DNA of 64,000 nt. Source: Lysobacter solisilvae (lineage in GTDB: Bacteria; Pseudomonadota; Gammaproteobacteria; Xanthomonadales; Xanthomonadaceae). The notes under the pieces are model-generated. The model was not told the origin of the DNA. It saw only the letters and a list, made by a program, of their open reading frames with translations, and did no database searches. The first letter of the stretch is position 1; each line of letters opens with the position of its first letter. Positions 54,215 to 64,000 of the stretch are shown here, piece after piece. The position numbers were made by a program, and so were the translations under genes. Where the stretch lies: positions 434,001-498,000 of the forward strand of contig NZ_CP071518.1 of the NCBI RefSeq assembly GCF_016613535.2, given 5' to 3'.

Positions 54215-56353
54215 TCATCGCAGTTCCGTCGCGCCCAGCTGGTCGAGCATGAACGCATACAGCTCGGCGCGTTCCTCGTGGCGACGGAAGCGACCCGACT
54301 TGCCGCCGTGGCCGGCGGCCATGTTGGTCCGGAACAGCACGGTGCGGTCGGAGGTGTTCACGTCGCGCAGGCGCGCGACGTACTTGGCCGGCTCGAAATA
54401 CTGCACCTGCGAATCCCACAGGCCGGTGAACACGAACATCGCCGGATAGGCCTGCGGCTTGAGGTTGTCGTAGGGCGAGTACGACAGCATGTAGTCGTAG
54501 TACTCCTTCTTTTCCGGATTGCCCCACTCGTCGTACTCGTTGGTGGTCAGCGGGATGCTGGCGTCGAGCATCGTGGTCACCACGTCCACGAACGGGACCT
54601 CGGTGAGGATCACCCGATAGCGGTCGGGCGCCATGTTGCTCACCGCGCCCATCAGCAGGCCGCCGGCGCTGCCGCCGTGGGCGGCGACCCGGTCCTTGGC
54701 CGCGTAGCCTTCCTTGACCAGGAAATCGGTGACGTCGATGAAGTCGGTGAAGGTGTTCTTCTTCTTCAGCAGCTTGCCGTCCTCGTACCACTGCCGGCCC
54801 ATCTCCTGGCCGCCACGGATGTGCGCGATCGCGTATACCAGGCCACGGTCGACCAGGCTGATCGCGCCGTTGCTGAAGCCCGGGTCCATCGAGCTGCCAT
54901 AGCTGCCGTAGGCGTACTGCAGCATCGGCGCGGTGCCGTCCTTCCTGAAGCCTTTCTTGTACAGCAGCGACACCGGCACCTTGGTGCCGTCGCGGGCCGT
55001 TGCCCACAGGCGCTCGGTCACGTACTGCGTCGGGTCATAGCCCGGGACCGGGTCGCGCTTGAGCAGCTTGCGCTCGCCGGTGCGGGTGTTGAGCTCGTAG
55101 GTGGTGTTAGGCGTGGTCATCGACGTGTAGCTGTAGCGCAGCCACTCGCTGTCCGGTTCGGCGTTCACCGACAGGCCCATCGAATAGGCCGGCTCGTCGG
55201 CGTCGACGAACTGGGCGCTGCCGTCCGCGCGCAGCATGCGCACGCGCTCCAGGCCCTGCGAGCGCTCGGCGATCGCGGTGAAGGTGTCGAACAGCTCGAA
55301 GCCTTCGATGTAGACGTCATCGCGGTGCGGCACCCAGTCCACCCAGTCGGCACGCGAAGTCGAACCGCTCGGCGCGGTGACGATCTTGAAGTTCTTCGCC
55401 GGCACGCCCTTGCCGTTCGGGGCGTTGGTGCGGATGACCCAGCGACCGCCGTGGTGGTCGGCTTCGTACTCGACATCGCGCTCGCGCGGCGACAGCACGA
55501 CGAACTGCTTCGGGTCCGCGGCCGGTGCGCAGCGCATCTCGTCGGACACGGTGCTGCTCACGCCGATGCAGATGAACTTGTCGTCGCGGGTGCGCGACAC
55601 GCCCATGTAGAAGCTGTCGTCGTGTTCCTCGTAGACCAGCTCGTCCTGCGAGGACGGCGTGCCCAGCACGTGCTTCTTGACGCGCACGGTGAGCAGGGTC
55701 TCCGGGTCGTTCTCGACGTAGAACAGGGTGCGGTTGTCGTCGGCCCAGACCAGGTTCGGCGAGACGCCGGTGACCGTGTCGGGATGGATCTCGCCGGTGG
55801 CCAGGTTCTTGAAGCGGATCGTGTACTGGCGGCGGCCGACGTCGTCCTCCGCCCAGGCCAGCAGCTGGTTGTCCTGGCTGACCTCGTGGTCGCCGACGCT
55901 GAAGTACTCCTTGCCGGCGGCCATGGCGTTGACGTCGAGCATGACCTCCTCCGGCGCATCCATGCTGCCCTTGTGGCGCACGTGGATGGGATAGTCCTGG
56001 CCCGTCTGGTAGCGCGTCTGGTACCAGTAGTCGCGCTCGCGGAACGGCACCGAACTGTCGTCCTGCTTGATGCGCGCGATGATTTCGTCGTAGATCTTCG
56101 TCTTCAGCGGCTGCAGCGGCGCCAGTGCCGCGTCGGCGTAGGCGTTCTCCGCCTTCAGGTAGCCGAGCATCTCCTCGTTCTTGCGCGAGTCGTCGCGCAG
56201 CCAGTAGTACTCGTCGCTGCGCTGCGCGCCGTGCGGCGCCTTCACCGAATGGGCCTTGCGGGCCACGTCGGGCGGAGCAGGCAGCTCGGCGGCCTGGAGG
56301 GAGAAGGTGGTCGTCATCAGCAGCGTCGCCAGCAGGGGAAGAGTCGGATTCAT
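54215..56353 (-). CDS. Oligopeptidase B-like S9 peptidase, secreted
   Basis: Predicted 712-residue serine peptidase. The signal peptide (cleavage near LQAAE) marks it as exported, unlike the cytosolic E. coli PtrB. A beta-propeller of about 330 residues is followed by the catalytic domain with nucleophile AHGGSAGGLLMG and the catalytic His in AAGHGGKSGRF. PtrB-like enzymes cut after Arg or Lys in short peptides. It is followed by a second S9 enzyme of the same length upstream in the same direction. Confidence 0.88.
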   Translation of the reverse strand: MNPTLPLLATLLMTTTFSLQAAELPAPPDVARKAHSVKAPHGAQRSDEYYWLRDDSRKNEEMLGYLKAENAYADAALAPLQPLKTKIYDEIIARIKQDDSSVPFRERDYWYQTRYQTGQDYPIHVRHKGSMDAPEEVMLDVNAMAAGKEYFSVGDHEVSQDNQLLAWAEDDVGRRQYTIRFKNLATGEIHPDTVTGVSPNLVWADDNRTLFYVENDPETLLTVRVKKHVLGTPSSQDELVYEEHDDSFYMGVSRTRDDKFICIGVSSTVSDEMRCAPAADPKQFVVLSPRERDVEYEADHHGGRWVIRTNAPNGKGVPAKNFKIVTAPSGSTSRADWVDWVPHRDDVYIEGFELFDTFTAIAERSQGLERVRMLRADGSAQFVDADEPAYSMGLSVNAEPDSEWLRYSYTSMTTPNTTYELNTRTGERKLLKRDPVPGYDPTQYVTERLWATARDGTKVPVSLLYKKGFRKDGTAPMLQYAYGSYGSSMDPGFSNGAISLVDRGLVYAIAHIRGGQEMGRQWYEDGKLLKKKNTFTDFIDVTDFLVKEGYAAKDRVAAHGGSAGGLLMGAVSNMAPDRYRVILTEVPFVDVVTTMLDASIPLTTNEYDEWGNPEKKEYYDYMLSYSPYDNLKPQAYPAMFVFTGLWDSQVQYFEPAKYVARLRDVNTSDRTVLFRTNMAAGHGGKSGRFRRHEERAELYAFMLDQLGATELR

Positions 56354-56404
56354 GGATGGGGTCCGCAGGGGGTTGGCGCAATGGGTCGCGGGGCCTGAAA
56401 CCAG

Positions 56405-56428
56405 ACGCGGGCGCCTGGGCGCCCGCGT
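56405..56428 (-). other. Hairpin between the two S9 peptidase genes
   Basis: ACGCGGGCGC and GCGCCCGCGT form a 10-bp stem with a CTGG loop in the 144-bp gap after the gene at 56498. Only CTGGTTTCAG follows on the minus strand, so it is a weak terminator candidate. Confidence 0.45.
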
Positions 56429-56497
56429 GCGGTGGTCCGGCCGGTTCAGGTCACCGGAGGGAGGTCCGGCGGCCGGGCCGCCTTCACTCCAGCCGCC

Positions 56498-58636
56498 TTA
56501 CTTCAGGGTTTCCCAGAGGAAGGTGTAGGCCAGCGCGCTCATGTGCGCGGCCTGGGCGTTGTTCGCCGAACCGCCGTGGCCGCCTTCGATGTTCTCGTAG
56601 TAGGTCACGTTCTTGCCGGCCTCGATCATCCGGGCGGCCATCTTGCGGGCGTGGCCGGGATGGACGCGGTCATCGCGGGTCGAGGTCATGAAGATGACCG
56701 GCGGGTACTTCTGGTCGGCCTTGAACAGGTGGTAGGGCGAGAAGCGCTGGATGAACTCCCAGTCGGCGGTGTCCGGGTCGCCGTATTCGGCCATCCAGGA
56801 CGCGCCGGCCAGCAGGTGGCTGTAGCGCTTCATGTCGAGCAGCGGCACCTGTACGACGACGGCGCCGAACAGCTCCGGGTACTGCGTCAGCATGTTGCCG
56901 GTGAGCAGGCCGCCGTTGCTGCCGCCCTGCACGCCCAGGTGCGGCGTGGAGGTGATCTTGCGGTCGATGAGATCCTTCGCGACGGCCGCGAAATCCTCGT
57001 AGGCCTTGTGGCGGTTGGCCTTGAGCGCGGCCTGGTGCCAGCGCGGACCGTACTCGCCGCCGCCGCGGATGTTGGCCACGGCGTAGACGCCGCCCTTCTC
57101 CAGCCAGCCCTTGCCGACGCTGCCGGAGTAGCCCGGGGTCAGCGAAACCTCGAAGCCGCCGTAGCCATACAGCAGGGTCGGGGCGCTGCCATCGAGCTTG
57201 AGGTTCTTCGGCCGGACCAGGAAGTACGGCACGCGGGTGCCGTCCTGGCTGGTGGCGAAGTGCTGCTCGGCCACGTGGGTGCTGGCGTCGAAGAAGGTCG
57301 GATTGGTCTTGAGCACCTGCGGCGCCTGGCCGATGTCGGCCAGCGCCAGCGTGCTGGGCGTGAGGTAGTCGGTGGTGGTCATCCACACCGCGTCGCTCTC
57401 GTCCGCGTCGACCGCGCCCACGCTGACGGTGCCCAGGCTGGGCGCGCCGACGAAGGCTTCGCGCTTCCACTCGCCGGCGGCGGGGGTGAGCACGCTGATG
57501 CGGTTCTTGACGTCTTCCAGCACGTTCAGGACGAGGTGGTTCTTCGTCCACGAGTAGCCGGACAGCGAGGTGCGCTCGGTCGGGGCGAACAGCACGGTGA
57601 ACTCGCGCTTGCCGGCCATGAAGTCGTCGAAGCGGGTGGCGATCAGGCTGCCGGCCGCGTAGGTGGTGCCAGCGGCCTGCAGCGGCTCGCGCAGCTCCAG
57701 CAGCAGCCATTCCTTGTGCACCGACTTGCTCGCCGAGTTCGGCGCGTCGACCTTGGCCAGCTTGCCGTCGGCGCCGCGCACGTAGATCTCGTCGTTGTAG
57801 AAGGCCAGGGTGCGGCTGACGAAGTCGCGCACGAAGCCGGCGGTGGGATCGCGGTAGGCGGCGATGTACATGTCATCGGCCTTGCCTTCGTACACCACCT
57901 GTGCCGATTCGATCGGCGTGCCGCGCTTCCATTCCTTGACCACGCGCGGGTAGCCCGACGAGGTCATCGTGCCCTGGCCGAAGTCGGTGTAGACGTAGAC
58001 GCGGTCGCGGTCGATCCAGCCCAGTCCGCCCTTGGCCTGGGCGCGATGGAACCCGTCCTTCACCCAGCTCTTCGTGCCCAGGTCGAACTCACGGGTGACG
58101 TCGGCGTCCGAACCACCCGGCGACAGCGCGATCAGGCAGCGCGTGTAGTCGGGCTTGAGGCAATCGGCGCCGTGCCACACCCACTGCTTGCCTTCGGCAA
58201 TGCCTTCGGCTTCGTTGAGGGCATCCAGGTCGATCACCGTCTCCCACTGGGGATCGGGCTTGCGGTATTCCTCCAGCGTGGTGCGGCGCCACACGCCGCG
58301 CTCGTGCTGCGCGTCCTTCCAGAAGTTGTAGTAGTACGGGCCGATCTTCTCGACCGCCGGAATCTTCGCGTTCGAGTCGAGCACGGCGCGGATGTCCGCC
58401 TCGAGCTTGCCGAAGCCCGGCGCCGTGGTCAGTGCCGCCTGGGTGCGGGCGTTCTGGGTCTTGACCCAGTCCAGCGGAGCCTTGCCCTCCACTTCCTCCA
58501 GCCAGGCGAACGGGTCGGCGGCGTCTTTCATCCTGGCAGCATCCTCGGCATGGGCGGCGCCTGCGATCGCGGCGAGGCCCGCGGTGAGGAGGACGGACAA
58601 CACGTGGCCCCGCGGGGCCTGGAACGTTGCGGGCAT
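56498..58636 (-). CDS. Prolyl oligopeptidase-family S9 peptidase, secreted
   Basis: Predicted 712-residue exported serine peptidase. The signal peptide ends at GAAHAED. The propeller domain is followed by the catalytic domain with nucleophile VQGGSNGGLLTG, Asp in TSTRDDRVHPGHARK and His in EGGHGGSANNAQ, the S9A signature of prolyl endopeptidases. It likely cleaves Pro-containing peptides in the periplasm or medium. It is adjacent to the oligopeptidase B-like gene; the two are only distantly similar. Confidence 0.88.
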   Translation of the reverse strand: MPATFQAPRGHVLSVLLTAGLAAIAGAAHAEDAARMKDAADPFAWLEEVEGKAPLDWVKTQNARTQAALTTAPGFGKLEADIRAVLDSNAKIPAVEKIGPYYYNFWKDAQHERGVWRRTTLEEYRKPDPQWETVIDLDALNEAEGIAEGKQWVWHGADCLKPDYTRCLIALSPGGSDADVTREFDLGTKSWVKDGFHRAQAKGGLGWIDRDRVYVYTDFGQGTMTSSGYPRVVKEWKRGTPIESAQVVYEGKADDMYIAAYRDPTAGFVRDFVSRTLAFYNDEIYVRGADGKLAKVDAPNSASKSVHKEWLLLELREPLQAAGTTYAAGSLIATRFDDFMAGKREFTVLFAPTERTSLSGYSWTKNHLVLNVLEDVKNRISVLTPAAGEWKREAFVGAPSLGTVSVGAVDADESDAVWMTTTDYLTPSTLALADIGQAPQVLKTNPTFFDASTHVAEQHFATSQDGTRVPYFLVRPKNLKLDGSAPTLLYGYGGFEVSLTPGYSGSVGKGWLEKGGVYAVANIRGGGEYGPRWHQAALKANRHKAYEDFAAVAKDLIDRKITSTPHLGVQGGSNGGLLTGNMLTQYPELFGAVVVQVPLLDMKRYSHLLAGASWMAEYGDPDTADWEFIQRFSPYHLFKADQKYPPVIFMTSTRDDRVHPGHARKMAARMIEAGKNVTYYENIEGGHGGSANNAQAAHMSALAYTFLWETLK

Positions 58637-58756
58637 GGGCGGCGCGGTTGAGTGGAAAGGAGGTCACGCTAGCACAGGGTCGCCGCCGCCCTGCCTGTGC
58701 CCGAGGTCATGGATGCGCCGGTCTGGCCGCAGCGGCCCGATTCGGCCAAGCCGGCT

Positions 58757-59137
58757 TCATGCCAGCGCCTTGGAGCCCCCACCCTGCGGGCCCGCACCTT
58801 TGGAGCCTGCACCTTTGGAGCCCGCACCTTTCGAGCCCGCACCCTTCGACCAGGCCGGCCGCGGCCCGGGCCGCACGCGGCGCCGGGCCTGCGGGCCACG
58901 GCGACGGGCGGACAACGGGCGGGCCGCGACGGGCGCCGACCCACCCGGTAGCGCGAACCCGTGGACGGCCCACAGCGCGGTCGCCGGCATCGCCAGCAGC
59001 CACATCGGCCACCACCCCAGCCATTCGCTGGAGCCCCGCGCGGCCGGCAGCAGCAGCACCAGCATCGCGCCGATCGCCAGCAGGTAGCGCGGCACATCAC
59101 GCAGGGAGGAAGCGGCAGGCGCGGCTGAAGGGTTCAT
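58757..59137 (-). CDS. Small membrane protein with KGAGS repeats
   Basis: I do not recognise this predicted 126-residue protein. Two hydrophobic segments (about residues 16-34 and 42-64) are followed by an Arg/Pro/Ala-rich stretch, then about four KGAGS repeats and a short end. The repeats stem from the 15-bp tandem at 58771-58845. The reading frame is plausible but unsupported by a family match. Confidence 0.5.
   Translation of the reverse strand: MNPSAAPAASSLRDVPRYLLAIGAMLVLLLPAARGSSEWLGWWPMWLLAMPATALWAVHGFALPGGSAPVAARPLSARRRGPQARRRVRPGPRPAWSKGAGSKGAGSKGAGSKGAGPQGGGSKALA
58771..58845. repeat. 15-bp tandem repeat in the KGAGS gene
   Basis: Units of TGGAGCCCGCACCTT, with variants, start at 58771, 58786, 58801, 58816 and 58831. 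They encode KGAGS on the minus strand. Confidence 0.85.
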
Positions 59138-59282
59138 GGCAGGGCTCCGTTGGACGTGGCCCTACCCTCCGCCATCGTCATCTCAGGGGTTGCGACGCGC
59201 AGGGGGCCGGCCCACCGGGGCGTCCGGACGCGGGCATCCGCAGCAGCTTCGGCAGCGGCGACAGCGGGTTTGGCCGCCCGAC

Positions 59283-61055
59283 TCAGGCCGTGCGCGCCAG
59301 CTCCGCGCCTTCCTCGGGCTGGCCGGCGCAATACACGCTGACGCGGTTGCGGCCTTCGCGCTTGGAGCAGTACAGCATCCCGTCGGCATGCGAGAGCAGG
59401 CGCGTGAGGTCGTATCCGGACAGCGACGCCGTGGTCACCCCGAAGCTCGCGCTGACCCCGAACGTGTGGCCACTGCCCTGGGTGTCGACCGCGGCGATCT
59501 TCTCGCAGCACACCTGCGCCATGCGCGTGGCGGCGGCCAGGTCGGCGCCGATCAGCAGGATCGCGAATTCCTCGCCGCCGATGCGGCCGATGCGGTCGTT
59601 GCGACGGCAGCACGCGCGGCAGGCCTGCGCGACCTGGCGCAGCACGAAATCCCCGGTGACGTGGCCGTACAGATCGTTGATCTGCTTGAAGTGGTCCAGG
59701 TCGAACATGATCAGGCCGACGTCCTGGCCGCTGCGCGCGCAGAAGGCCAGCGCCTCCTCCGCCTGGCGGGTGAAGTGGTGGCGGTTGCTGATGCCGGTGA
59801 GTGCGTCGGTTTCGGCCAGGCGGCGGAACGACATCTGCATCCGCTTGGTCTTGTAGGCGAAGTAGCCGATGAAGGCCAGCAGCGTCGCCAGCAATGCCGC
59901 GATCAGCTGCGTGTTGCGTGCCGCGGCCCGGTCCACGCGCTTTTCCAGTTCGAGCACTTCGTTGCGGCGGTTGAGCAGCTCGATCTGCTGGTTCTTCTGC
60001 AGCGTTTCCTGGCGCACGATCTGGTAGGACAGTTCGCGCGCCTTCACGTCGTTGAGGTAGGCCTTGTCGCTCTCGGCGTAGTTTCGATAGTGATGGAGCG
60101 CGGCCACCGGGTCGTTGCGGCGCGCGGCGATGTCGTAGAGGGTCCTGTGCGCCATGACCAGCGGCAGCGAGTTGGCCATGCCCGAGCTCTGCGCGATCGA
60201 GGCCCGGGCGTGCCGTTCGGCGCCGTCCACGTCGCCTTCGGCCAGCATGAATTCCGCCTGCAGCGATTCGATCTCGCCGATCAGCCGCGGATAGCGGGTG
60301 GCGGCCACTTCGGCGGCATGTTCCTGCAACAGCGCGGCGGCCTTGCGGCGCTCGCCCCTGGCTGCCCACTTGCGCGCCAGGATGGCGCGGCTGAGGTTGG
60401 TCCACACCGCCTCGTGCTGCACCCGGCACCGCTCGATGACCTGCATGACCGGCGCGTCCTCCTCGCCCAGCACGCCCAGGTGCAGCGAGGCTTCCAGCTT
60501 GAGCATCCCGGCGTAGCATTCGGCCCGCCCGGAGGTCGGCGCGGCCAGGATCTGGTCGGCGTAGCGCAGGCCCAGTTCGTACTGCCCGATCTGGTTGTAG
60601 AGCACGGCGGCGACGGCCAGGCCCTGCTGGCGCAGGTCCGGGTCGCCCACCTTGTCGGCCAGCGGCAGCATCTGCTCGAGCTGGCGCAGTCCCTCGACGA
60701 ACTGCCGCATGGCCGCGTGGCTGTTGACGATCAAGGCGCCCGCCCGGTACTGCAGGCTGACATCTTCGGTCGTCTCGATCAGCCGCTGCGCCTGCGCGAT
60801 GGCGACGTCGAAATGGCCGGCGTAGGCCTGCGAATAGGCGTTGAGATAGGCCAGCCGGTCGCGCTGCGCGGGCGATGCCTGCGCGATCAGCGCGTTGAGC
60901 TGGGCCAGCCGCTTCTGGAAGCTGGCCGGATCCGAACTGCGCACGGCGTCCGCGCGGTCCAGCAGCACGTCGAACTGGCTGGCGGCGCCGCCTGTCCGCG
61001 GCACCGCCAACAGGACGGTCGCCAGCAGCGCAAGCCCTAGCAGGCGTGCGGACAT
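59283..61055 (-). CDS. TPR-GGDEF diguanylate cyclase
   Basis: Predicted 590-residue membrane protein. The signal peptide (cleaved near GGAAS) is followed by about 370 residues of helical TPR-like repeats outside the membrane, a coiled coil (QKNQQIELLNRRNEVLELEKRV), one transmembrane helix, and a C-terminal GGDEF domain with an intact GGEEF in RIGGEEFAILL. It would make c-di-GMP in response to a periplasmic signal. The ATG at 61055 is used. It begins only 25 bp after the stop of the borosin-like precursor gene, so it could be cotranscribed, though it is not obviously part of that pathway. Confidence 0.83.
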   Translation of the reverse strand: MSARLLGLALLATVLLAVPRTGGAASQFDVLLDRADAVRSSDPASFQKRLAQLNALIAQASPAQRDRLAYLNAYSQAYAGHFDVAIAQAQRLIETTEDVSLQYRAGALIVNSHAAMRQFVEGLRQLEQMLPLADKVGDPDLRQQGLAVAAVLYNQIGQYELGLRYADQILAAPTSGRAECYAGMLKLEASLHLGVLGEEDAPVMQVIERCRVQHEAVWTNLSRAILARKWAARGERRKAAALLQEHAAEVAATRYPRLIGEIESLQAEFMLAEGDVDGAERHARASIAQSSGMANSLPLVMAHRTLYDIAARRNDPVAALHHYRNYAESDKAYLNDVKARELSYQIVRQETLQKNQQIELLNRRNEVLELEKRVDRAAARNTQLIAALLATLLAFIGYFAYKTKRMQMSFRRLAETDALTGISNRHHFTRQAEEALAFCARSGQDVGLIMFDLDHFKQINDLYGHVTGDFVLRQVAQACRACCRRNDRIGRIGGEEFAILLIGADLAAATRMAQVCCEKIAAVDTQGSGHTFGVSASFGVTTASLSGYDLTRLLSHADGMLYCSKREGRNRVSVYCAGQPEEGAELARTA

Positions 61056-61080
61056 GGCCCCGTGGAACTGCAGTGGACGA

Positions 61081-61371
61081 TCAGTCCGCGCGGTCGGTGT
61101 CCGGCGACTGTTCGGGGGCCTCGCCCTCGCCCTCGCCTTCGCCGTCGTCGCGCTGCGGTTCGTCGTTCTCGGCGGGCACCAGCCCGAAGAACATCGTGGC
61201 ACGGCCGCCGAGCAGGTCGTTCAGTGCGGCATGGTCGCGATCGAGCAGCGCGCGCTGCTGCGCGGCGTCGATGTCCAGGCGGGCGACGGTGGCCGCGTAC
61301 TCGCTGTCCGACATCGCTGCCGTGGACGACGTCCGACCCATGGCTTCCAGAAACTTGAGCACTGCAGACAT
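61081..61371 (-). CDS. Candidate borosin precursor peptide (separate substrate protein)
   Basis: Predicted 96-residue small protein. Residues 1-57 are helical: VLKFLEAMGRTSSTAAMSDS, then EYAATVARLDIDAAQQRALL and DRDHAALNDLLGG. This arrangement resembles the clasp region of OphMA (PKALAEYKADHRAFAQ, then LTPQERAALELGD) and the borosin-binding domain of SonA-type precursors. A hydrophobic segment RATMFFGLVPAENDEP (about 57-72) follows and is the likely core; residues 73-96 are an acidic EGEGEGE tail. A good Shine-Dalgarno, AGGGAGAG, lies 5 bp before the ATG. The gene is 221 bp downstream of the methyltransferase. The family assignment is by eye, and the methylated positions are unknown. Confidence 0.7.
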   Translation of the reverse strand: MSAVLKFLEAMGRTSSTAAMSDSEYAATVARLDIDAAQQRALLDRDHAALNDLLGGRATMFFGLVPAENDEPQRDDGEGEGEGEAPEQSPDTDRAD

Positions 61372-61398
61372 GGCGCACTCTCCCTGCTTAGTTGAATG

Positions 61399-61415
61399 CC
61401 ACGGATCTTCCGTGG
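61399..61415 (-). other. Hairpin in the leader of the precursor gene
   Basis: CCACGGA and TCCGTGG pair perfectly around TCT, 28 bp upstream of the precursor ATG. It may affect the precursor mRNA; there is no T-tract. Confidence 0.35.
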
Positions 61416-61499
61416 TCCCCCAGGCCAGACGACCGGCCGGCGCGGCGACCGCGCGAAAACGCGTGGTGCTGCCTTCAGCGATCGAGGCTCCCCGAAGGC

Positions 61500-61527
61500 A
61501 CCATATCGGATCAGCGTTGAATTGCAA
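61500..61527 (-). promoter_or_regulatory. Possible promoter for the precursor gene
   Basis: TTGCAA (61527-61522) and TATGGT (61505-61500), 16 bp apart, resemble sigma-70 boxes, in the 221-bp gap between the methyltransferase and precursor genes. This would allow more precursor than enzyme to be made. Confidence 0.3.
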
Positions 61528-61592
61528 CCGCGCGGGAACGGCGGTGCGGCCCCGTGCGTGAAGCCGATGGTGGGCGGCCGCGGCCCGCCGAC

Positions 61593-62528
61593 TCAGGCCC
61601 CGCCCGGCACGCGGTGCGCGTCCAGCCGGGCGATGCGGTCGAGCATGGCCTGGTTGGGCTGCATCGCCATCGCCGGCGGAATGACCAGGGTCGATTGCAG
61701 GTGCAGCGTGGCCTCGACCAGCCCCGACAGCGGCAGGCGCTCCATCCGCGGGGAGGTGATCGGCAGTGTCGCGGCTTCGTAGATGATCACTTCGTGGTCG
61801 CGGGGATAGTCCTGGGCCAGCAGGTCGACCAGCAGCGCGCGGTGCTGCGCGTCGGTGGAATAGCGGCGCAGGCTGCGGTCGCCCGCCAGGCCGATCTGCC
61901 ACAGCACCAGGTAGGCCGAAGGGTCGATGCGGCGCTGGTAGAACATGAACTGGCTGGCTTCGAAATGCGCGCAGCCCACGCGGCCCGGGTCGATGCCCAG
62001 GTCCGCATACAGGCAGTCCTCCGCCGACACGCCCGGCTCCATGTGCGCCAGGAAGCCTTCGCTGCGCGCCTGCCCGACCGCATGGTGCGGCACCTGGGCG
62101 AACACGCCGGGATGGCCGTAGAACGCGCCGCACACGCGCCGGCCGGCACGGACTTCGACCATCATCGCCTCGACCATCTCCCGATAGGTGTCGTGACGCG
62201 ATTTACCTTCGGCGTAGAAGGGCTGCAGGCTGCGCACGTCGCCGTGCATGTCCTGCAGCCACAGCTCGACCAGCGCGTCCGACACGGCCGCGAAGACCAC
62301 ATCCGCCTGCTCGATGTAGTTGCGTGCACGCGGGCCGATGTGCGCCCCCAGCATCATGCCCAGGCCCACGCAGGCCAGGCTGCCTTCGGTCTTCGCGCCG
62401 GCATCGGGTGCGCGGTGGACCGGCGTGCCGTGCGTGGGCACGCTGTCCTTGTGCATGCTGTCCTTGTGCATGCTGTCCTTCTGCATGCTGTCCGTGTGCG
62501 TGCCGTCCTGCAGGGTGCCGGTCATCAT
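61593..62528 (-). CDS. Borosin-type peptide backbone alpha-N-methyltransferase
   Basis: Predicted 311-residue SAM-dependent enzyme of the tetrapyrrole-methylase fold. After a leader with three DSMHK-like repeats (residues 13-30), the enzyme begins at GSLACVGLGMM. The blocks FYAEGKSRHDTY (about 104-115), GAFYGHPGVFAQVP and PGVSAEDCLYADLGIDP (about 165-181) match the fungal omphalotin enzyme OphMA almost residue for residue, including the Arg and Tyr equivalent to OphMA Arg72 and Tyr76, known to matter for catalysis. It lacks the C-terminal clasp and core peptide that OphMA carries on the same chain; those features appear in the separate protein at 61081. It should methylate backbone amides of that substrate. 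The ATG at 62528 has AGGAC upstream; an in-frame upstream start would overlap the acetyltransferase gene. Confidence 0.88.
   Translation of the reverse strand: MMTGTLQDGTHTDSMQKDSMHKDSMHKDSVPTHGTPVHRAPDAGAKTEGSLACVGLGMMLGAHIGPRARNYIEQADVVFAAVSDALVELWLQDMHGDVRSLQPFYAEGKSRHDTYREMVEAMMVEVRAGRRVCGAFYGHPGVFAQVPHHAVGQARSEGFLAHMEPGVSAEDCLYADLGIDPGRVGCAHFEASQFMFYQRRIDPSAYLVLWQIGLAGDRSLRRYSTDAQHRALLVDLLAQDYPRDHEVIIYEAATLPITSPRMERLPLSGLVEATLHLQSTLVIPPAMAMQPNQAMLDRIARLDAHRVPGGA
62436..62510. repeat. 15-bp tandem repeat at the 5' end of the methyltransferase gene
   Basis: Units of GTGCATGCTGTCCTT start at 62436 (variant), 62451, 62466, 62481 (variant) and 62496 (variant), and encode the DSMHK-type repeats in the leader of the enzyme. 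Confidence 0.88.
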
Positions 62529-62589
62529 GGTCGTCGTTGTCCTGTGCGCTTGCCGCCGCGTGCGGCGGCGTTCCGGAACGGTGGCCTGC

Positions 62590-63249
62590 TCATGCGCCCG
62601 GTGGGTTCCGGCCGCGATGATGTCCAGGCGAATGCTTTTCGGCCGCGAGTTCTTCAGCCATGTATCCACGCCAGGCCGCTGCCGTCAGCTCCCAGCGAAG
62701 GTCGAAGCGCGCGTCGAAGCGATCGGTCGGCTCCACGGGAACGGGCCGGAACCCCAGCCGCCGCAGGACGGCGATCGAACCGGCATTGGTCGCGGCGTGC
62801 CGTCCAACCAGCATCGGCAGGCCCAGCACCTCGAATGCGTGCGTCGCCAGCTGGCGGAGCGCCTCCACCGTGTAGCCGCGACGCTGCCAGGCCGGCAGCA
62901 CCATCGAGCCGACGTCGGCGCCCTTGCGCGGCTGCGCGTTCGTCACCAGCGCGGCCAGGCCGATGTCGACGTCCTGCGCGGCTTCGTGCATCACCCACAG
63001 GCGCCAGCGCGGCGCGCGGCCCTGCACGATCCGGGTGAAGCAGTCGCGGGCAGCGGCCGGAGGCAGGGGATCGGCGACCTGCGCCATGAGGACCGGGTCG
63101 CAGTAGATGCGTTCGTACAGCGCCTCATCGCCCGCCGCCAGCGGGCGCAACCGCAGCCGCGCCGTCCGCATCTCCGGCAGTGCGGGATCCTCCGCGTTCC
63201 GGCTTGCGCCCGGCGGCGACAGCGCGACGCCCTCGGGCCGCGCCCTCAC
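62590..63249 (-). CDS. GNAT-family N-acetyltransferase
   Basis: Predicted 219-residue acetyltransferase. MRTARLRLRPLAAGDEALYE is a GNAT start, AWQRRGYTVEALRQLATHAFE holds the acetyl-CoA loop region (QRRGYT), and HAATNAGSIAVLRRLGFR is the RimJ/RimL-type end. Its target is unknown: a peptide N-terminus or amine of the neighbouring product is one possibility. GTG at 63249 overlaps the protease stop by four bases (GTGA); the conserved region starts 27 residues in. It lies 61 bp before the methyltransferase gene. Confidence 0.78.
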   Translation of the reverse strand: MRARPEGVALSPPGASRNAEDPALPEMRTARLRLRPLAAGDEALYERIYCDPVLMAQVADPLPPAAARDCFTRIVQGRAPRWRLWVMHEAAQDVDIGLAALVTNAQPRKGADVGSMVLPAWQRRGYTVEALRQLATHAFEVLGLPMLVGRHAATNAGSIAVLRRLGFRPVPVEPTDRFDARFDLRWELTAAAWRGYMAEELAAEKHSPGHHRGRNPPGA

Positions 63250-64000
63250 GCCTCCTGCGCCCGTGCAACGCGCAGCACGCCGGTGCCGCGGCGATCGAAG
63301 ATGCAGTAGCAGCCACTGAGCAGCGGCAGGCCCAGGATGCTCTGCCGCGGCCAGCCCGGCAGCTGTTCCAGCAGCAGGAAGAAGCTCTGGCCGGCGTGCA
63401 GGGCATTGGCCTGCCAGTAGTCGCCCGGTGTGCAGCTCAGCCGGACTTCCTGGCCGTCCTCGCCTTCCAGGTGGAAATGCAGATCCGGCCAGTCGCGGTG
63501 GTCGACCAGCCGGTTGGGCAGGCCGGACTCGGTGCGGAAGGCTTCCTCGAACCGCTGGATCACGCCGGGAAAGTTCGCGTCATGCCGTCCGAAGGCGTCC
63601 AGCACCGCCGCGTACACCGAGGCCTCCAGCACCAGGAAGCTGCTGCCCGTGTCGAAGATGGCATTGCTCGCGGCGCGGTCGAGCTCGTCGGCGGCCAGGG
63701 CGGGCACCGGGATGCGCGGCTGGTCGCCGACCTGCACCGAGATCAGGTTGGCGTTGTAGTACAGCTCATGGACCAGGCGCACGTTGCGGAAGGGGCCCTC
63801 GTACAGGTCCTGGTGTTCCTCGCCGCCGCCCAGGATCAGCACGCCCTGGTTGAGCGGATCGCCGGCCAGCGTGTGCAGCGCGGCCTCGTCGTCGAGCACG
63901 TGCACGAGCGAGCGGCGGATCAGCATGGCGAACTTGTCGGTGACCACGTGCGCTTCCCCGGCCGCGGTGAACAGCGGGGTCACACTCACCGGCGGCTGCC
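63246..64000 (-). CDS. Pepsin-like (A1-family) aspartic protease, C-terminal part
   Basis: The gene continues past the right edge of the window: the frame is still open at 64000, so the N-terminal lobe and start are not seen. About 250 residues are visible. GVLILGGGEEHQDLYEGPF resembles the pepsin GGxDxxxYxG region, NAIFDTGSSFLVL holds the second catalytic Asp-Thr-Gly, and SILGLPLLSGCYCIFDRRG fits the C-terminal ILGDxFLRxYYxVFDR motif of pepsins. Pepsin-fold proteases are uncommon in bacteria; shewasins of Shewanella are known cases. It is coupled to the acetyltransferase by a GTGA overlap, so it is probably the upstream gene of the borosin-like group and might process the modified peptide. 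Confidence 0.72.
   Translation of the reverse strand, partial: QPPVSVTPLFTAAGEAHVVTDKFAMLIRRSLVHVLDDEAALHTLAGDPLNQGVLILGGGEEHQDLYEGPFRNVRLVHELYYNANLISVQVGDQPRIPVPALAADELDRAASNAIFDTGSSFLVLEASVYAAVLDAFGRHDANFPGVIQRFEEAFRTESGLPNRLVDHRDWPDLHFHLEGEDGQEVRLSCTPGDYWQANALHAGQSFFLLLEQLPGWPRQSILGLPLLSGCYCIFDRRGTGVLRVARAQEA

Follow-up and report, generated by a model that had tools for sequence, protein, structure and literature searches.

A split-borosin locus of Lysobacter solisilvae and its TPR-GGDEF neighbour as a candidate receptor for an N-methylated peptide

In Lysobacter solisilvae, the genes for a split-borosin α-N-methyltransferase and its small precursor are directly followed by a gene for a membrane protein with a tetratricopeptide repeat (TPR)-like domain and a GGDEF domain, and this TPR-GGDEF protein is the most constant partner of the methyltransferase across the relatives examined. 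The stretch of DNA that was analysed (the window; 64,000 nucleotides) corresponds to bases 434001–498000 of a single-contig 3.93-Mb genome. The locus lies on the minus strand and encodes, in transcription order, a pepsin-like protease, a GNAT acetyltransferase, the methyltransferase, the 96-amino-acid precursor and the 590-amino-acid GGDEF protein. That the sensor gene stands beside the peptide gene in most of the relatives suggests that the peptide is the signal read by the sensor. We consider it fairly probable that the locus combines a split-borosin cassette with a receptor, the N-methylated peptide acting as the ligand of a dedicated protein that feeds cyclic di-GMP (c-di-GMP).

Borosin methyltransferase and its separate precursor

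The methyltransferase gene (61593–62528, minus strand) encodes 311 amino acids from an ATG. SonM was the closest solved relative of the protein (7ltc/9ch2; phmmer E 4.5e-80 over residues 49–299 of 311), Pfam assigned it to TP_methylase, and the fungal enzymes OphMA and dbOphMA were homologous to it (E about 1e-49). Among the named genomes, the nearest methyltransferase was that of Lysobacter sp. CFH 32150 (79%). The equivalents of SonM Tyr58, Arg67 and Tyr71, the roles of which are given in the discussion of PMC8429565, were Y57, R63 and Y67 (trimmed protein numbering) and were invariant in 12 aligned homologues. The first-pass annotation of this DNA had singled out the conserved blocks KSRHDTY, FYGHPGVF and PGVSAEDCLYADL, all of which were recovered in the 311-residue open reading frame (ORF), and it had described the enzyme as devoid of a C-terminal clasp or core, in agreement with the end of the SonM match at residue 299. 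A 48-residue N-terminal extension (62385–62528, minus strand) with three M-x-K-D-S repeats had been left out; matches of relatives to the methyltransferase start between residues 29 and 50, and the extension itself gave a weak TIGR02953 match (17.4 bits vs a cut-off of 41).

The precursor gene (61081–61371) lies downstream on the same strand, as annotated, and its ORF is preceded by the purine-rich AGGGAGA. The protein of 96 residues comprises a borosin binding domain (residues ~1–56), a hydrophobic core (~58–69, ATMFFGLVPAEN) and an acidic tail, with helices predicted at residues 3–15, 22–30, 36–43 and 47–53. Homologous ORFs occur 3' of the methyltransferase in relatives, and a profile built from 60 precursors matched nothing but SonA chains in the PDB (7/7 matches at E ≤ 10), with a modest best E of 0.018. 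With the single precursor sequence, phmmer found nothing in the PDB, and neither Pfam (E ≤ 0.1) nor NCBIfam (E ≤ 1) returned a family; Foldseek matches of the precursor model had E values above 2, and the binding domain showed a weak fold match to the OphA clasp. The family search of both proteins that the first-pass annotation had put forward as a check hence returned SonM by phmmer for the one and SonA by profile for the other, bearing out its proposal of a split borosin with a separate substrate. The window genes are almost certainly members of this family, and the methyltransferase should methylate the peptide backbone of the small precursor.

SonM/SonA, the type IV split borosin of Shewanella oneidensis (PMC8429565), likewise consists of a separate methyltransferase with the same catalytic residues and a precursor made of binding domain and core. 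The window differs from it in the length of the precursor (96 amino acids), the long acidic tail, the MFFGLVPA core, and the added GNAT and aspartic protease. In the fused borosins of fungi (OphMA, dbOphMA), enzyme and substrate form one chain, in contrast to the separate genes found here. We know of no sensor gene accompanying the fungal fused borosins.

Copy number and architecture varied among relatives. A same-family genome (L038) carries three tandem precursor genes between methyltransferase and cyclase, and two Rhodanobacter loci (L169 and L175) carry four and five precursor genes together with two cyclases; one precursor type in the latter loci has an EECDGSC motif, a possible metal-binding site. 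In one Shewanella locus (L235), a second, partial SonM-type match lies next to the full one. In a distant relative from the same phylum, a borosin-type methyltransferase domain lies close to the N-terminus of a 1174-amino-acid protein (L263:4843–8364, minus strand), the rest of which matched no Pfam family at E ≤ 0.001.

The adjoining TPR-GGDEF gene

The first-pass annotation ended at 61081 and thereby overlooked the gene for the 590-residue protein (59283–61055, minus strand), which starts 25 bp past the end of the precursor gene. The protein has an N-terminal hydrophobic segment, an all-helical TPR-like domain (~27–312), a long helix (316–415) containing a hydrophobic, transmembrane-like stretch by hydropathy (~382–402), and a GGDEF domain (414–571; Pfam E 1.5e-42). 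It carries the marks of a diguanylate cyclase, GGEEF and an RxxD I-site (RRND), and its AlphaFold model had a pLDDT of 90.8. Among 77 named relatives of the cyclase, GG[DE]EF was present in 77 and RxxD in 64; an N-terminal hydrophobic segment was found in 69 and a transmembrane-like stretch ahead of GGDEF in all 77, with protein starts picked by script for these two counts. The TPR assignment derives from Pfam matches in relatives and from fold comparison, in which the sensor resembled the Rap/Phr peptide receptors of Gram-positive bacteria.

Neighbourhoods for comparison came from methyltransferase searches (53/53, 7/7 new, the best 80 of 570, 8/10 SonM-type Shewanella, 23/41 and 17/17 matches). 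In all, 180 neighbourhoods were pooled, of which 10 pairs shared one methyltransferase sequence; 170 loci were distinct. A sensor was counted as adjacent if the match covered at least 330 residues (cyclase) or at least 400 residues (kinase) and started no more than about 3 kb away from the start of the methyltransferase. By this measure, a TPR-sensor gene was adjacent in 158/170 loci: a cyclase 3' in 138, a cyclase 5' or fused in 10, a divergent cyclase in 1 and a TPR-histidine kinase in 9. In the named loci (the best 80 of 570 from the methyltransferase alignment search), a same-strand cyclase relative lay 3' of the methyltransferase in 79, one copy being cut by a contig end (L144); in the remaining locus the contig stops at the methyltransferase. 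When the ORFs of these 80 loci were clustered, methyltransferase was recovered in 79, cyclase in 79, GNAT in 45, precursors in 30 and protease in 18, and every other cluster in at most 11, shadow ORFs (judged by position) aside. The profile script found precursors in 73/80, a lower bound, as the same script takes a far-upstream start codon and so overlooks the precursor of the window itself.

The association extended beyond close relatives. As in the window, a TPR-GGDEF gene was next in line in 8/8 SonM/SonA-type loci of other Shewanella (enzyme 67–81% identical to SonM, precursor ORFs of 70–87 amino acids), and the tie spans records of Lysobacterales, Shewanella, Rheinheimera, Neiella, Povalibacter and Steroidobacter. 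Among 100 relatives, 43/47 genomes with the methyltransferase had a full-length cyclase match vs 2/53 without it, with at most 13 candidates scored per genome; the Fisher p of 4e-21 is indicative only, as related genomes were counted as independent. The genome of the window had 42 GGDEF matches, 41 of them over the cut-off, and by simple arithmetic the chance of a same-strand GGDEF gene within 2.5 kb is ~1.3%.

The form and order of the sensor gene varied among the loci. In nine loci, from one genus group and its relatives, the SonA-like precursor is followed by a gene for a hybrid histidine kinase that joins TPR to HisKA, HATPase and receiver domains (Pfam covered 8 of the 9). In six relatives, cyclase and methyltransferase form a single ORF; Pfam on four of these found GGDEF and TP_methylase in all, with TPR above the cut-off in L072 and weaker TPR matches in L073, L074 and L088. 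These four fused loci, and the cyclase-5' loci L090, L093, L097 and L098, have a SonA-like precursor ~2.0 kb upstream of the methyltransferase, which places it directly ahead of the cyclase. The ninth fused or cyclase-5' locus (L095) starts within the fusion and has no precursor there; the fusion L091 was left out of this look-up. Some loci contain precursor-cyclase pairs in tandem. Eight cyclase loci had no methyltransferase nearby, and in three of these a precursor lies 66–154 bp before the cyclase match. An Rfam scan of 58600–64000 gave no match at E ≤ 0.5, hence no known c-di-GMP riboswitch was found in that region.

A peptide signal and competing explanations

In the pathway that we propose, the N-terminal binding domain of the precursor would dock on the methyltransferase, and backbone amides in the hydrophobic core would then be N-methylated. 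The sequence shows the parts for these two steps, as well as the genetic linkage with the TPR-GGDEF protein. We infer the subsequent steps and the direction of signalling: proteolysis, in this locus probably by the pepsin-like enzyme, would release the core from the binding domain and acidic tail; the new N-terminus might be capped by the GNAT; the small N-methylated peptide would reach the periplasm by some route or by diffusion; the neighbouring membrane protein would bind it with its periplasmic TPR-like domain; and the long helix would relay binding to the GGDEF domain, altering c-di-GMP. According to PMC8429565, N-methylation favours membrane permeability, which would be in keeping with a signal that has no exporter.

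A number of observations weigh against this pathway. The locus is known from its genes, so that methylation, cleavage, binding and the effect on c-di-GMP are all predictions, and ORF clustering of the 80 named loci found no exporter among the conserved genes. No sensor was counted in 12/170 loci (L061, L064, L083–L087, L089, L094, L095, L152 and L263), including 5/7 distant class-level loci; two of the 12 were kept in this count even though the contig stops at the methyltransferase (L152) or begins within a GGDEF-methyltransferase fusion (L095). The cyclase of the window itself gave no Pfam TPR match, and TPR superhelices are widely alike, with APC/C and APPBP2 chains outscoring Rap proteins in the fold comparison. 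The tandem evidence consists of five loci under a type rule of our own, which L160_1 does not fit. No precursor was detected in 5/8 of the unlinked cyclase loci, and in one of the three with a precursor (L288) the contig ends 265 bases past it, so a methyltransferase could lie off the contig. Finally, the weak covariation of core and sensor sequences (partial Mantel; 6/79 precursors dropped for missing values) was not confined to the core. The binding domain covaried with the sensor too (r 0.313), and with the binding domain as covariate the core signal weakened to r 0.166 (p 0.005 to 0.075), hence linkage could account for part of the covariation.

The strongest alternative, which we regard as unlikely but worth serious consideration, is an ordinary split borosin that makes a secreted metabolite or a metal-binding peptide, with the cyclase regulating production or export through c-di-GMP and sensing no peptide. 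Pathway-specific regulators are likewise placed beside biosynthesis genes, the GNAT and protease resemble tailoring enzymes, and the covariation of the sensor with the binding domain, at least as high as that with the core, would agree with it. Yet the pairs of precursor and cyclase that lack a methyltransferase nearby, the type-matched tandem pairs and the fusions link sensor and precursor more tightly than would be required of a generic regulator.

It is distinctly less probable that the precursor works inside the cell as an intact protein and partners the cyclase or the methyltransferase, with N-methylation as a switch on the protein and no peptide released. The absence of a protease by profile from 62/80 named loci would agree with this, as would the eight SonM-type loci, in which neither GNAT nor protease was found by profile, and the cyclase-methyltransferase fusion, which would set both activities on the cytoplasmic side. 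Against it, the N-terminal hydrophobic segment (69/77) and the transmembrane-like stretch (77/77) would make the sensor periplasmic and keep it apart from such a precursor. That the adjacency reflects no more than an ancestral operon order of no functional consequence, in what would be just another split borosin, is very improbable: many loci do come from related genera of a single order, with 10 same-methyltransferase pairs in the 180 neighbourhoods, but flanking genes turn over (at most 11/80) and the tie persists across several genera and survives rearranged gene order, fusion and exchange of the output.

Peptide and TPR sensor are, in our judgement, very probably coupled functionally in some way; for the more specific claim that the peptide is the ligand of the sensor, the balance tips narrowly in favour. 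Such a receptor would differ from Rap proteins, which are cytoplasmic, in being membrane-bound, with a likely periplasmic sensor, a GGDEF or histidine-kinase output and a predicted N-methylated ligand. RRNPP receptors are cytoplasmic, and their output is a helix-turn-helix DNA-binding domain or the Rap helical bundle. With its GGDEF output behind a transmembrane-like stretch, the cyclase is not a member of this group and would be at most an analogue.

Accessory genes and relation to known pathways

The GNAT gene (62590–63249, minus strand; Pfam PF13302, E 2.5e-25) has a GTG start that overlaps the protease stop, and its true start may be a later ATG at residue 27. The protease gene lies within the window by its C-terminal part (63246–64000, minus strand) and continues to base 64490 in window numbering; the full protein has 414 amino acids (L004:7246–8490). 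Two catalytic motifs in the one chain, LLLDTGSS and AIFDTGSS, place it in pepsin family A1, in line with matches to Pfam Asp (E 2.1e-12) and, with both halves aligned, to beta-secretase 2 (E 4.1e-12). By eye, its N-terminus had no evident signal peptide, which would fit a cytoplasmic maturation role. The first-pass annotation had proposed both enzymes as partners in the pathway. They are real genes and occur in part of the family, GNAT by profile near the methyltransferase in 48/80 named loci (42 upstream, 6 downstream) and protease in 18/80, but they are not constant. The order protease-GNAT-methyltransferase-precursor, for which a survey of relatives had been suggested, is common to some Lysobacter and Shewanella loci and not family-wide. 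Hence GNAT and protease are accessory, and the four-gene unit holds for one branch.

Upstream of the protease, a regulator region that we take to be WYL-type (L004:8529–9496, minus strand) seems split over more than one frame, through disruption of the gene or a sequencing error. Next in line 3' of the GGDEF gene are two real, tandem prolyl oligopeptidase genes (54215–58636, minus strand), which were considered as macrocyclases and rejected because the nearer gene is not kept with the borosin unit. Across 41 neighbourhoods it occurred in that of the window and in L073 (opposite strand), and across 19 further neighbourhoods in L088 alone (opposite strand). The co-conservation of peptidase and borosin genes that characterizes omphalotin-type macrocyclization was thus not seen here for the nearer gene.

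As of 2021, the final product was not known for any split-borosin pathway (PMC8429565), and the title of a 2023 paper cited in PMC10885120 announces one bacterial product. No receptor was found described alongside SonM/SonA in PMC8429565, and a word search of its main text returned neither GGDEF nor biofilm. The legend of Figure 1 in PMC11395268 lists a GGDEF-containing domain among borosin architectures, so some GGDEF-borosin link is already known; this may be the fused form found in six relatives, whereas the cyclase of the window is a separate gene, and the discussion of that paper proposes no signalling role. In the literature searched, outside of which lie the main borosin surveys (Imani 2022, Cho 2022, Crone 2023, Lee 2024), no paper linked borosin with diguanylate, and PMC11395268 alone combined borosin and GGDEF; Lee 2024 reportedly describes effects on growth and biofilm in Shewanella. 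Within that literature, what is new is the receptor interpretation alone.

If the interpretation is correct, it would tell the purpose of many split-borosin pathways and provide a ribosomally synthesized and post-translationally modified peptide (RiPP) as ligand of a dedicated transmembrane diguanylate cyclase, with ligand-receptor pairs that could be listed from genomes. We are evenly divided on whether gammaproteobacterial split borosins serve mainly in peptide signalling, each cassette pairing an N-methylated ligand with a dedicated TPR receptor in the periplasm, with outputs that can be exchanged (c-di-GMP or phosphorelay) and coevolution of core and sensor. If they do, backbone N-methylated RiPPs would have a general biological role.

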